From a virus, in IMG/VR virus record IMGVR_UViG_3300036782_000027, positions 1-35,291 of that record: a stretch of DNA of 35,291 nt; one strand, 5' to 3'. A program made the translations under genes and the position numbers. Of this stretch, positions 5,463-31,698 are shown in pieces. The first letter of the stretch is position 1; the number at the start of each line of letters is the position of its first letter. A model generated the notes under the pieces. The model saw only the letters and a list, made by a program, of their open reading frames with translations, did no database searches and was not told the DNA's origin.

Positions 5463-5518
5463 ACGCGATCGGCCAAGACGCCGTGCAAGCGATCATGGCG
5501 GAGGCGTTCGATGGCTAG
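5306..5518 (+). CDS. Hypothetical protein, 70 aa
   Basis: ATG at 5306 is preceded by GGAGG at 5297-5301, a well-placed ribosome binding site inside the upstream gene. The protein (MPADTTEVFKALCWSRAYRW, then ILAFAIDPLQQWAADHGLID) looks like a compact helical acidic protein. It ends with an 8-base overlap (ATGGCTAG) with the vapE start, implying coupled translation. No family is recognised; being directly before vapE it may be expressed with replication functions. Confidence 0.72.
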   Translation: MPADTTEVFKALCWSRAYRWRERVFDPGEDRDDILAFAIDPLQQWAADHGLIDAIGQDAVQAIMAEAFDG

Positions 5519-6749
5519 AGGTCCGACCGTCGTCGCGTTTCCCGCCCGCTATCCGTTCCGCACTCAAGGCCGGGCTAACGTCGTCATCCCCGACCTCGCG
5601 AACGTGATGATCGCCCTACAGCACGAACCGGGCTTCGCCGTCGCCTTCGCCTTCGACGAAATGCAGCAGGAGACAATCCTGCGCGCCACGCCGCCGCTCC
5701 CCCCGAACGCCGACGCGGGCGACGTTTTTCCACGGTTCGCCGACGAAGAGGACATCACGCGGCTGCAACGGTGGATGCAAATTCACATGCCCAAAGTCGG
5801 GCGCGAGCATATCCATTGGGCGCTTGAGGAGTTCGCCCGGTCGAATCCGATCCACCCGCTGCGCCTTTGGCTCAGAACCCGCGAAATCGGCGTCCGCCAG
5901 CCGGTCCTCGAAAACTGGTTGAGCTTCGCCTTGGGCGTCCCCAACGACGCCTATCACCGCGAAGTCGGGCGCCGATTCGCGATCGCGATGGTGGCGCGCA
6001 TCTTCGAACCCGGCTGCCAAGCCGACTACATGCTGGTTTTGGAGGGGCCGCAGGGCGAACTGAAAAGCCAGTTCTGCCGCGCCCTTGCCGGGGCCGAATA
6101 CTTTTCCGACCACATCCCGTCGCTCAACGCCGATCAGGTCCGCGTCTCGATGCACATGCGGGGCAAATGGCTGATCGAAATCTCCGAGCTCGCCGCCTTC
6201 AACAAGGTCGCCGACGTCGAAACGCTGAAAGCTTTCATCACCCGGCGCGAGGAAATCTTCACCCCGAAATACGGGCGCAAGGAGCGGCGCGAGCGGCGCC
6301 AGTGCCTGTTCATCGGCACCACCAACACGGACGATTGGATCAAGGATGAAACCGGAGCGCGCCGCTTCTGGCCCGTAAAAGTTGTGTCCGTCAACCTAGA
6401 GTGGCTGGAGGCCTACCGCGACCAACTGTTCGCCGAAGCCGTCGAAGCCTACGACGCTGGCGAGCCGTGGTGGCCGACCAAGGACTTCGAACGGCGGGTC
6501 ATCTCACCCCAACAAGAAAAACGACAAGCCTTTGATAACTGGACCGATCGCGTGCTTGAGCTAGCCGCATCGCTGACCACCGTGACGATCGCCCTACTCT
6601 GGCAGGGCATGGGTCCGATAACAACCGGCGGCGACCTGTCCCGCTTGGACATGAACGCGCAGAAGCGAATCGCCGCAATTCTGCGAAAGGGCGGTTACGT
6701 CAAACATCGCGGCGGACCCGGTCGCGTAGAGTGGCGAAAACCCGAATAA
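5511..6749 (+). CDS. VapE-family P-loop ATPase (replication helicase-like), 412 aa
   Basis: Matches the virulence-associated E / phage primase-helicase C-terminal family. A Walker A region is at residues 179-186 (GPQGELKS), a Walker B-like strand with acidic pair is WLIEISE (220-226), a sensor-type FIGTTN is at 267-272, and an arginine-finger-like RRFWPV at 284-289. The usual last glycine before the Walker A lysine is Leu here; related VapE proteins with GARKS-type loops are known, so this is probably a subfamily trait. No primase (TOPRIM/AEP) domain is present at the N-terminus. It likely supports phage DNA replication initiation. The repeat-rich 6750-7185 region follows directly. Confidence 0.92.
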   Translation: MARGPTVVAFPARYPFRTQGRANVVIPDLANVMIALQHEPGFAVAFAFDEMQQETILRATPPLPPNADAGDVFPRFADEEDITRLQRWMQIHMPKVGREHIHWALEEFARSNPIHPLRLWLRTREIGVRQPVLENWLSFALGVPNDAYHREVGRRFAIAMVARIFEPGCQADYMLVLEGPQGELKSQFCRALAGAEYFSDHIPSLNADQVRVSMHMRGKWLIEISELAAFNKVADVETLKAFITRREEIFTPKYGRKERRERRQCLFIGTTNTDDWIKDETGARRFWPVKVVSVNLEWLEAYRDQLFAEAVEAYDAGEPWWPTKDFERRVISPQQEKRQAFDNWTDRVLELAASLTTVTIALLWQGMGPITTGGDLSRLDMNAQKRIAAILRKGGYVKHRGGPGRVEWRKPE

Positions 6750-26419: not shown

Positions 26420-26940
26420 ACGGAAAACGCCTGAATGATGGTGGCGAAGCCGCTGCCGATGACTTGGACGTTTTGGCCGTCGGCCAAGACCGTCCCGGCC
26501 GAGTTAGGCTGGATCATGGTCAGCGTGCCGGTGGGGATCGGCACTTGCATCCAGCCGAACCAATTTGGCGGCCGATGTCCGGCGAGCGGCCGGATCGGCG
26601 GATCGGTGCGTCCGGTCTTGCGCTGCCACGCGCGCCACGCCTCGAGGTAATCGTCGTAGCGCATGAACGGCGGCGGGGGAGGGGGTCCGCAGCCTGGCGG
26701 CGGCGTCGCGCATGTGGATTGGGGTGGTCCGCCGCGTGGCAATTGGCCGGTCCCCGGAGCCCGCGCCGGGTTGTAGCTCGGAACTGGAGGGACGAGCATG
26801 ATGACGCAATTCGAACTCGTCGAGACGACCCATGCGCCCTTTGGCAGGGTGTAGGGGAAGCGACCGATTTGACGCGGTTTCCCGAACGGCGACAGCCCTG
26901 CGCCGGGTGGTCCGGGCGGCCATGCCTGAACGGGCAGCAT
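26416..26940 (-). CDS. Pro-rich virion-associated protein, 174 aa
   Basis: Starts in a TAATG overlap with the major capsid stop. The first 95 residues are Pro/Gly-rich with a run of prolines (GCGPPPPPPFMRYDDYLEAW); a helical piece follows, then a beta end (GTLTMIQPNSAGTVLADGQN, VQVIGSGFATIIQAF). No family is recognised. Position directly after the capsid gene suggests a capsid-decorating or stabilising role. Confidence 0.65.
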   Translation of the reverse strand: MLPVQAWPPGPPGAGLSPFGKPRQIGRFPYTLPKGAWVVSTSSNCVIMLVPPVPSYNPARAPGTGQLPRGGPPQSTCATPPPGCGPPPPPPFMRYDDYLEAWRAWQRKTGRTDPPIRPLAGHRPPNWFGWMQVPIPTGTLTMIQPNSAGTVLADGQNVQVIGSGFATIIQAFSV

Positions 26941-27956
26941 TAGAAGGGTGCGCCTCCCGTTATGCCTTGGAGCTGGACCCCGGTCGATGGCTTAGAGCAG
27001 ACCAGATTGAGCGCAGTAAGCGATAGGCCCACGCTGGCAATCTGCCCTTGCGGGATGGTGGAGTACCAGCCGGTCCAGGCGAAGTTGGCGTCCTCGTGAA
27101 CGACGAGGGTGATGTACTTCGAATTGAAGCCATAGGCGGTCCCCTGCGGACAGTTAAGGTCAAAGAACAGCGGGGTGTCGCCCAATAGGAGACCTCGGAA
27201 GCCTGAATTGACAGGATCATCCTTTCCCCATCGGCTTGACGGGTCATTGTTGTACCTTTCGACCGACATGAAGTCGGTCAGGAGCGTCGTCCAGTCTTCG
27301 ACCGACATGACGACGAAATCGAGCGCCTCGCCGCCCGAATTTTTCACTGCGGCGAGCATTTTCGGGATGAACGTCGCCCGGGTGAGGATGGCGCCCGCCG
27401 CTGGCGTGACCAAGGCCTGCCAGTCGGGATAGGTCGCGCGCGACAGGCCTCCGTAGCTGGGAGCCGTGGCGGTGTCGCCGTAGGCGTCCTGCAAGGAAAA
27501 CATCTGCAAGACGTTGGTTGTCGGCGGCCCGAACAGGGCGCTCGACAAGGCCTGCAACGAGCTGTTCTTGAGGTCGTTCAGCTTGAGCATCAGGCGCGAG
27601 GCGACGGCGATCGCGTCCTGAGTGACGAGCTGTTCGAGCCCAAGCGAGCTGACCGGGGTGGCCAGACAACACATATTAAATTCGGCATTTACGGTCGCGG
27701 CCACGTCGGCGGGCAAGTTGAATTGGCCTGCCGGACCAATCCAGCTCGATTGGACGTACTGCCCGGTCTGCACGGGCTGGGTGTAGGGGCTCACACCGCC
27801 GCTGGCCCGGATCGCGTTGCGCAATAGCAGCGCGAGCAGCGGGTTTTGCTTGTAGATCAGGATGACGACCATCTGGGCGAAGACGCGCCGGACAGTTGCT
27901 TCAAGTTCCAGCCCAATGGGGCCGGATGGGATTAGGCCCGCGCCAAGAATCGGAAT
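26940..27956 (-). CDS. Major capsid protein (HK97-type), 338 aa, ATT start
   Basis: Capsid-type protein: an N-terminal helical part (NPLLALLLRNAIRASGGVSP), a central domain (LVTPAAGAILTRATFIPKML; SVEDWTTLLTDFMSVERYNN; RGLLLGDTPLFFDLNCPQG), and the typical beta end (NSKYITLVVHEDANFAWTGW then GQIASVGLSLTALNLVCSKP). The only in-frame ATG (27872) has no ribosome site, whereas the frame is open for 28 further codons up to an ATT at 27956 that stands five bases after AGGAGG. I therefore place the start at ATT, giving a product beginning with the residues PILGAGLIPSGPIGLELEAT after the initiator. It assembles the icosahedral head. Confidence 0.85.
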   Translation of the reverse strand: MPILGAGLIPSGPIGLELEATVRRVFAQMVVILIYKQNPLLALLLRNAIRASGGVSPYTQPVQTGQYVQSSWIGPAGQFNLPADVAATVNAEFNMCCLATPVSSLGLEQLVTQDAIAVASRLMLKLNDLKNSSLQALSSALFGPPTTNVLQMFSLQDAYGDTATAPSYGGLSRATYPDWQALVTPAAGAILTRATFIPKMLAAVKNSGGEALDFVVMSVEDWTTLLTDFMSVERYNNDPSSRWGKDDPVNSGFRGLLLGDTPLFFDLNCPQGTAYGFNSKYITLVVHEDANFAWTGWYSTIPQGQIASVGLSLTALNLVCSKPSTGVQLQGITGGAPF

Positions 27957-27961
27957 GGTAG

Positions 27962-27967
27962 CCTCCT
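27962..27967 (-). promoter_or_regulatory. Ribosome binding site deciding an ATT start
   Basis: Minus-strand AGGAGG at 27967-27962 followed by CTACC and then ATT (27956). It is a perfect anti-16S match in the 17-base gap between scaffold stop (27974) and capsid frame. No ATG, GTG or TTG in the capsid frame lies within reach, so it argues for initiation at ATT. Confidence 0.7.
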
Positions 27968-27973
27968 ATGGGG

Positions 27974-28513
27974 TTATCGTCCTCTGGCGCGCTCCGAATC
28001 TCGGTTGATTGCGCCTAGGATTTCTTTGCGTCCCCACGCTTCCGGGTCTTTGGCGATTTCCTTGAAGTTGGGCTCCTCCTCATGCTTCCAGAACTGGCTG
28101 TCATAAGTCGGCTCCGACGTCTGCGGGTTCTTAGCTGCCCTGTAGGACGCCGCGACCTCGTGATCGGCGACGGCGTGTTCGTGCATCCACTTTTCTAAGT
28201 CGCCCATCGCCTCGTCGGTGAAGCCGTATTCCTTCTTCACCTTGCTGCGGCTGGTATTCCAAGCGTCCATGTCGGCCTTGGTGCGGGCGGCCTCGGCTTC
28301 CTGTCGCTTGCGGTTTTCCTCGGCTCCCAGACGTTCGTCGATTTTTTGTTCCATGTCGTAGTCGGGGATGGCGAGATTCGGGTATTTGCGCTTAATGAGG
28401 CGCTTGGCCTCCTTGTTGAGCTGCGGATCGTTATAGATCGACTCGACGAAGTCAGCGGTCATCCTTTTATTCTGAAGAAATGCGTACTCTTCATCGCTGA
28501 TTTGTTTAGGCAC
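27974..28513 (-). CDS. Scaffold-like head assembly protein, 179 aa
   Basis: Highly charged, predicted nearly all-helical protein (RMTADFVESIYNDPQLNKEA; KIDERLGAEENRKRQEAEAA; MGDLEKWMHEHAVADHEVAA). It lies immediately upstream of the major capsid protein, the usual place of scaffolding proteins, and has the usual size and coiled-coil character. No protease domain is seen anywhere nearby. It overlaps the HNH gene by 8 bases. Confidence 0.7.
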   Translation of the reverse strand: MPKQISDEEYAFLQNKRMTADFVESIYNDPQLNKEAKRLIKRKYPNLAIPDYDMEQKIDERLGAEENRKRQEAEAARTKADMDAWNTSRSKVKKEYGFTDEAMGDLEKWMHEHAVADHEVAASYRAAKNPQTSEPTYDSQFWKHEEEPNFKEIAKDPEAWGRKEILGAINRDSERARGR

Positions 28514-28847
28514 TTGTGGCCTCCCGCCAAAACATGCCCCGCGCCGCGCCGCGCCTGACGTTTTCCTTGTGCGTCACAGCCTCAAGGTGGGGCTCGGCGA
28601 TGCAGTAGGGCACTCTGCAAAGATGATCTAGCTCAAACCCCTTTGGAACCGGCCCGTTTTTCAGCTCGTAGGAGACTGTCGCCGCCTTGCGCCTGACTTG
28701 GACGCCGGGCGCATCCGTACAGGTGATGCGGCCATATCCGTCCTTGTCCAGCGTCGCGAGCCATATCTGGCAACCCGACGGTGTTCTGAACGAAAGTCGC
28801 TCAAGCCTTTCGGCGAGCGGCTTGGGCTTGGGGCCGCGCTTGCCCAT
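28506..28847 (-). CDS. HNH homing endonuclease-like protein, 113 aa
   Basis: Starts MGKRGPKPKPLAERLERLSF, then the family pattern GCQIWLATLDKDGYGRI, a basic stretch, and FELDHLCRVPYCIAEPHLEA followed by HKENVRRG. The D-H in ELDHLC and the later N-V form the ββα-metal core of HNH_3-type enzymes. Such genes are usually selfish elements in phage late operons. The gene overlaps both neighbours slightly (start with the 61-aa gene, stop with the scaffold). Confidence 0.82.
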   Translation of the reverse strand: MGKRGPKPKPLAERLERLSFRTPSGCQIWLATLDKDGYGRITCTDAPGVQVRRKAATVSYELKNGPVPKGFELDHLCRVPYCIAEPHLEAVTHKENVRRGAARGMFWREATSA

Positions 28848-31236: not shown

Positions 31237-31698
31237 CTATTGACAAACGGACCTGTTCGCCACCTGCTGCTTTTGCGTCGCCCAGCGGCAATTTCCGGGC
31301 TCGTAGCCTCGCTCGTTGTCCTTGCGATCAATTGAAAGCCCTGTCGGCGGATCGCCCATTTCAGCATAAAATTCCTCAAAGTTCGCATAGTGAACCTTGA
31401 TCCCGCGCCCGCCATAGCGTTTGAAAAAGCGGTTCTTCGGGTTGTTGCACCGCTGAAGCATGTTGCACCAAATTTTATAGATTTTGCTTCCAGTTTGCCT
31501 GTGCGTGAAGCGCGATTCACGCCGCCAGCATCCGCAAGATTGGATAGCTCCGATCTTAAGATGGTTGGATAAAACGAGGGCTTGGTTGCCGCAGTCACAT
31601 TGGCACAGCCATTTTGCATGTTGGTCGCGGCCACTACCTTGCCGCTCTAGGGCTATGAGGCGTCCAAAGCGCAAGCCAGCGATGTTTGCAAAAGCCAT
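31237..31698 (-). CDS. HNH-type homing endonuclease-like protein, 153 aa
   Basis: The phage HNH-type pattern with N-terminal zinc module: KWLCQCDCGNQALVLSNHLK (Cys pair about residues 32/34), QSCGC, then KIYKIWCNMLQRCNNP, RYGGRGIKV and SIDRKDNERGYEPGNCRWAT near the end. These match phage homing-type endonucleases of the HNH/AP2-associated group. The usual C-terminal DNA-contact segment after the 'QQ..N' box is short, so it may be a trimmed or inactive copy. It is inserted between portal and the accessory protein. Confidence 0.8.
   Translation of the reverse strand: MAFANIAGLRFGRLIALERQGSGRDQHAKWLCQCDCGNQALVLSNHLKIGAIQSCGCWRRESRFTHRQTGSKIYKIWCNMLQRCNNPKNRFFKRYGGRGIKVHYANFEEFYAEMGDPPTGLSIDRKDNERGYEPGNCRWATQKQQVANRSVCQ

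Follow-up and report, generated by a model that had tools for sequence, protein, structure and literature searches.

The window analysed here is the whole 35,291-nucleotide stretch of the IMG/VR virus record IMGVR_UViG_3300036782_000027. Read from an ATT codon, its major capsid protein gene lies on the minus strand at 26940..27956 and has 338 codons followed by TAA, and its relatives align with it from residue 1. In a profile search the protein hit PHROG 9953 ('major head protein', E 9e-23), and its AlphaFold model, with a mean pLDDT of only 59, is similar to phage capsids of the HK97 fold (best Foldseek E 1e-7, TM about 0.45). Judged by family profile and predicted fold, it is thus likely to be an HK97-fold major capsid protein. 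The nearest named phages by capsid are two uncultured 'Manatee Spring' phages (36% identity) and the Myxococcus phages Mx8 and Mx9 (26-27%), and a search for capsid relatives in 84,980 genomes, made to find the host, returned none. In some relatives (L080, L134, L164, L175, and L184) the capsid C-terminus carries a proline-rich extension, which reaches about 75 residues in L080. The capsid stop codon TAA and the start codon ATG of the following gene overlap (TAATG, 26939-26942), suggesting that translational coupling operates downstream too.

The ATT initiation codon occupies 27954..27956 on the minus strand. It follows a perfect Shine-Dalgarno (SD) sequence, AGGAGG (27962..27967, minus strand), with the 5-nt spacer CTACC between them, as the first-pass annotation had described. 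An in-frame TAG (27966..27968, minus strand) overlaps the SD sequence as TAGGAGG and is the upstream limit of the capsid frame, four codons ahead of ATT. When the minus strand was translated from 28040 to 26940, the capsid frame after this TAG read GAG GCT ACC ATT CCG ATT CTT GGC, in which GAG, GCT, and ACC are the sole codons between the stop and ATT. There is no ATG, GTG, or TTG in the frame before the ATG at 27870..27872 (minus strand), which is codon 29 and encodes an internal methionine, Met29. The first-pass annotation had also held that capsid-like sequence extends 28 codons upstream of the first ATG and that ATT is the only usable start-like codon there, and both statements agree with the frame as translated.

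Directly upstream of the capsid gene is a putative scaffold gene of 179 amino acids with a GTG start (27974..28513, minus strand), whose stop codon TAA (27976-27974) is 17 nt before ATT. It had no PHROG or Pfam match, and the scaffold role is suggested by its position, which is conserved in relatives. An HNH endonuclease gene of the HNH_3 type (28506..28847, minus strand; PHROG 826, E 1.5e-25; Pfam PF13392, E 1.7e-9) overlaps the scaffold GTG. This GTG (28513) follows a GGGAGG within the HNH coding sequence, and the close relative L002 has ATG at the same place. The structural gene block contains a second endonuclease-like gene from another HNH family (31237-31698; PHROG 374, E 1.6e-53). A VapE-like/DNA helicase-primase gene (5511-6746; Pfam PF05272, E 3e-70) is on the plus strand, opposite to the structural genes.

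The first-pass annotation had proposed that homologues be aligned to look for ATG at the ATT position. In all of the 80 nearest IMG/VR relatives the tblastn alignment begins at residue 1, and the start column is ATG in 69, TTG in seven, and ATT in four. Across the 127 distinct IMG/VR start contexts listed, window included, the starts fall in one alignment column throughout, with at least 108 ATG, nine TTG, four GTG, and six ATT; the ATT of the window therefore shares its column with the ATG, TTG, or GTG starts of 121 other contexts listed. The ATG count is a sample, while the scans for ATT/ATC/ATA and for CTG/GTG/TTG are complete for the pattern used. A scan of IMG/VR for the conserved N-terminus preceded by ATT, ATC, or ATA found six contigs, all with ATT and none with ATC or ATA; the commonest isoleucine codon inside these capsid genes is ATC. 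The corresponding scan for CTG, GTG, or TTG found sixteen contigs. Since ATT sits where more than 100 relatives carry ATG, TTG, or GTG, chance is not a reasonable explanation.

The N-terminal stretch ranks among the best conserved parts of the capsid protein, even in relatives at 35% identity, and P2, G5, G7, P10, G12, P13, G15, E17, L18, R23, and R24 do not vary among 30 diverse members. In the six ATT genes, pN/pS was 0.134 for codons 2-28 and 0.132 for codons 29-130, and in the clade of the window the values were 0.074 and 0.078. Codons 2-28 are under purifying selection and are therefore translated, beginning at or just before codon 2, where the window offers no candidates but ATT and the still less plausible ACC, GCT, and GAG. 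A start at Met29, with the upstream codons untranslated, is very improbable. This ATG is the first in the frame and is the start reported by an ORF finder limited to ATG, GTG, and TTG, but the residues that such a start would discard are some of the least variable in the family, codons 2-28 are selected as strongly as codons 29-130, and the ATT column is ATG in most of the nearest relatives. It would also cut the predicted first helix (residues 13-37 in a low-confidence model). The start column is homologous, purifying selection extends from AUU to the first ATG, and a strong SD sequence is suitably spaced. We therefore consider, from these comparisons, that the major capsid gene is very probably initiated at AUU 27956-27954, with a probability of about 0.9. 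This is the start that the first-pass annotation had favoured, and it now stands on a homologous column, selection before the first ATG, and its recurrence in several contigs at more than one place in the capsid tree.

Besides the window, ATT starts were found in L002, L003, L004, L057, and L184/L200, six other contigs of which L200 is L184 in a second sample. These contigs come from the IMG samples 3300036822, 3300036845, 3300036828, 3300036791, 3300036833, and 3300036834. In L184 the in-frame stop is again TAG, four codons upstream of ATT. In a capsid tree of 113 genes, built with the first 20 codons left out, the ATT genes were at three places: the window with L002, L003, and L004; L057; and L184 (also L200). 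The nearest tree neighbour of L057 is an ATG gene, and so is that of L184. ATT thus needs at least three changes on well-supported branches, and a single ATT clade was rejected (cost 306 log-likelihood units, AU p 1.9e-5). The spacers of the ATT genes also differ (CTACC/CTACA, CTCAC, and ATAAA). Recombination among viruses could have spread a start-region cassette, though the differing spacers have to be set against this. The capsid bodies do not form one clade, but the start region may have its own recombination history, and how many times ATG mutated independently to ATT is thus hard to tell.

The window comes from a metagenome assembly, and ATT might be a sequencing or assembly error for ATG. 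We regard such an error as extremely unlikely, because six other contigs from three parts of the tree share ATT in the same column, each with AGGAGG at 5 nt, and one ATT clade was rejected; an error would not follow the SD sequence. Equally unlikely is a passage of ribosomes from the upstream gene into the capsid frame through frameshifting or stop readthrough, with AGGAGG as the stimulator and no initiation at ATT. Frameshifting in prfB and dnaX is stimulated by SD-like elements, and in L004, L162, and L175 the HNH gene before the capsid gene is in the capsid frame with only TAG between them. However, the upstream gene ends in differing frames among the ATT viruses (offsets of -17, -18, -9, -10, and -1), two stops intervene between the two genes in the window, the scaffold TAA and the in-frame TAG, and most relatives have a plain ATG at the column.

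The start codon was closely associated with the SD sequence. AGGAGG at exactly 5 nt precedes 6/6 ATT, 8/9 TTG, 1/4 GTG, and 2/108 ATG starts among the contexts listed, while AGGAGG at 6-8 nt was found before ATG starts only (seven of the contexts listed). Among the listed genes that have AGGAGG, the spacing is 5 nt in 15 of the 15 with non-ATG starts compared with two of the nine with ATG (p 1e-4). When AGGAGG at 5 nt was searched for irrespective of the start codon, 20 contigs were retrieved, and three of them (L087, L095, and L281) are ATG by elimination against the ATH and CTG/GTG/TTG scans. When ATT or TTG genes were compared with ATG genes in phylogenetically independent contrasts, all eight contrasts went with AGGAGG at 5 nt (p 0.008).

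The first-pass annotation had suggested that ATT could limit capsid output relative to the scaffold, which captures only half of the sequence pattern. Since ATT is tied to the strongest SD sequence at one fixed spacing, compensation or balancing seems a better description than a simple damping of the capsid gene. From these sequence associations, a strong SD sequence and a weak start codon are probably kept in balance by selection, which would hold capsid translation in a workable range. Compensation and simple tolerance, in which the codon drifts behind a strong SD sequence, predict nearly identical patterns, and our choice of balance is a preference. Tolerance would mean that AUU initiation is real but near-neutral, with the perfect SD sequence allowing TTG or ATT to arise by drift and no selection for balance at work. 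It predicts the same SD association, and selection on start codons has been described as weak but significant (PMC5622118). Nevertheless, ATG is nearly absent from the AGGAGG-5 nt class (2 of the 17 distinct contexts listed), scarcer than relaxed drift from ATG suggests, and ATC and ATA never occur in the ATH-start scan. We therefore favour the balance of SD sequence and codon, and consider drift rather unlikely.

Other explanations for the ATT start were also considered. RNA structure as the main explanation was rejected because the start regions of ATT and ATG genes are similarly accessible: accessibility of the start codon was slightly higher in ATT than in ATG genes (0.66 vs 0.47), and that of the SD sequence was not (0.35 vs 0.43). 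A phage tRNA reading AUU as a start codon was rejected because there is no tRNA in the window, and the only tRNA calls in its ATT relatives were tRNA-Pro and tRNA-Phe, in L184 and L200. Elsewhere in the window, AGGAGG or GGAGG followed by ATT heads no supported gene, so further ATT starts were rejected as well.

The start codon is also associated with HNH genes. An HNH gene is found between the putative scaffold and capsid genes in 11 of the 127 contexts listed, sporadically and scattered over the tree. The upstream gene of L004 matches Pfam PF13392 HNH_3 (E 2e-10), and the others (L057, L184, and so on) carry HETVHHKNG..DNRPENLELW or close variants. Half of the ATT genes sit behind such an inserted HNH gene. 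With contexts counted regardless of kinship, non-ATG starts were found in 7 of the 11 HNH-preceded contexts vs 12 of the 116 others listed (p 1e-4). Counted in the same way, the 11 HNH-preceded genes divide completely: the five with AGGAGG all start with ATT or TTG, and the six with a weaker SD sequence all start with ATG or GTG (p 0.002). The HNH genes of L004 (ATT), L162 (TTG), and L175 (TTG) end in TAGGAGG, and thus their stop codon forms part of the capsid ribosome-binding site (RBS). Those ending in TAGGAGA (L126) or TAGGAGT (L235) are followed by a capsid gene that starts with ATG.

Genes with the same motif are also found directly before the scaffold gene in L003, L048, L051, L053, L187, and L242, with stop and start codons overlapping or a few bases apart, so that one HNH family has two neighbouring insertion points, one before the scaffold gene and one before the capsid gene. 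In L048, L055, and L058 a conserved scaffold-capsid gap of 58-60 nt precedes a TTG start; in part it is similar to HNH ends, and it may be what is left of an HNH gene.

No HNH gene directly precedes the capsid gene in the window, L002, or L003, which nevertheless keep TAGGAGGCTACC. In L004, which is closely related to the lineage of the window, the HNH gene is present together with TAGGAGGCTACA, and GTAGGAGGCTAC is common to L003 and the HNH-bearing L004. We put the derivation of the capsid RBS from HNH genes at about even odds, and the TAG at 27966..27968 of the window is possibly a remnant of an HNH gene end. Loss of the HNH gene with the RBS left behind would be the simplest account for the window, L002, and L003. 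The putative scars of this loss in the lineage of the window amount to 12-13 matching bases with the SD sequence itself included, and since the shared SD sequence inflates the scores, the alignment is only suggestive.

Taken further, mobile HNH genes may repeatedly insert before the capsid gene and swap its RBS for TAGGAGG-N5, which would force or allow AUU or UUG as the start codon. A major virion protein would then depend on initiation that is non-canonical and IF3-sensitive, and this state would persist after the HNH gene is lost. We regard the full scenario as tentative, at somewhat less than an even chance. The neighbouring HNH genes also raise a different reading of the weak codon, namely that AUU initiation is real and the codon marks immunity of the capsid start to cleavage by the HNH endonuclease, not translational balance. 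Free-standing homing endonucleases act near their own gene in intronless homing (PMC2988022), and the enrichment of non-ATG starts beside HNH genes would fit. Target immunity does not predict, however, that ATT or TTG tracks SD strength exactly in the HNH-preceded genes (5/5 vs 0/6), and where HNH genes precede the scaffold gene, its start has mostly stayed ATG. We consider target immunity improbable and retain the balance of SD sequence and start codon as the preferred reading.

Under this balance, the fMet initiator tRNA would start the capsid protein at AUU, and a product beginning fMet-Pro-Ile-Leu-Gly is expected. AUU would mispair with the CAU anticodon at the third base; IF3 disfavours such complexes in characterised bacteria, and sensitivity to IF3 is presumed here. 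The perfect AGGAGG at 5 nt would grip the mRNA just past the stop codon of the upstream gene, so that ribosomes finishing the putative scaffold, or loading directly, may be captured at AUU. Methionine before proline is removed by the usual aminopeptidase rule. The initiator methionine is thus probably cleaved before Pro2, exposing the N-terminus PILGAGLIPSGPIGLELEATVR, and the mature capsid protein should therefore equal that of the ATG relatives. The RBS itself probably arrived with HNH genes that inserted at the scaffold-capsid junction and ended in TAGGAGG; the lineage of the window would later have lost the HNH gene but kept the RBS and ATT. In E. coli, re-initiation appears to use 30S subunits and is inhibited by excess IF3, less so with an SD sequence (PMC2268962). 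By analogy, this behaviour would fit the gene arrangement of the window.

AUU starts have been described in cellular genes. E. coli infC has an AUU start like the capsid gene, a weak codon open in principle to discrimination by IF3 (PMC5472188), but in infC it serves feedback control of IF3 itself, while in the window it heads a virion structural gene. In E. coli pcnB, AUU is given as a start that limits translation (Binns and Masters 2002, as cited in PMC13009471); pcnB encodes a cellular enzyme, whereas the capsid gene is a structural phage gene with a perfect SD sequence. Staphylococcus aureus cvfC1 (AUU), ccpN, and citZ (both AUA) also have non-canonical starts, and those of cvfC1 and ccpN are directed by strong SD sequences and conserved in relatives (PMC13009471). 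These are cellular genes studied by ribosome profiling and reporters, while the start in the window is predicted from sequence comparison, and their SD sequences are extended whereas the capsid family has the hexamer AGGAGG. With strong extended SD sequences, the S. aureus AUU and AUA starts reached about 10% of the output of AUG when the medium was poor (PMC13009471), and a similar relative output would be low for a capsid protein.

Compensation between SD sequence and start codon is found genome-wide in prokaryotes for GUG and UUG (Belinky et al. 2017, PMC5622118), weaker start codons going with stronger SD sequences as in this capsid family. That study covers GUG and UUG and omits AUU, and in the capsid family the SD sequence and its spacing hardly vary, so that the association comes close to being all-or-none. 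The HNH genes resemble the free-standing HNH homing endonucleases of phages, which are likewise sporadic genes between conserved structural genes that overlap or abut the next start. What differs from known HNH homing genes is that here the HNH end provides the RBS for the gene that follows and goes along with changed start codons; these HNH genes are putatively mobile.

AUU starts (infC, pcnB, and cvfC1) and the rescue of a non-canonical start by a strong SD sequence are thus already known. We found no report of an AUU or ATT start in a phage capsid gene in the open-access literature, and the apparent tie between the capsid start codon and HNH endonuclease genes was unexpected. So far AUU starts have been described for a few regulated genes of bacteria; recurrent AUU initiation in a phage major capsid gene, tied to a single SD sequence and spacing, would mean that even a start codon among the weakest can head the gene for a protein required in large amounts. 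Gene callers limited to ATG, GTG, and TTG would strip 28 conserved residues from the capsid protein. One orthologous gene with ATG, GTG, TTG, and ATT starts and graded SD sequences provides a natural series for the trade-off between SD sequence and start codon. Furthermore, these associations suggest that mobile endonuclease genes may rewire the translation of the gene behind them.
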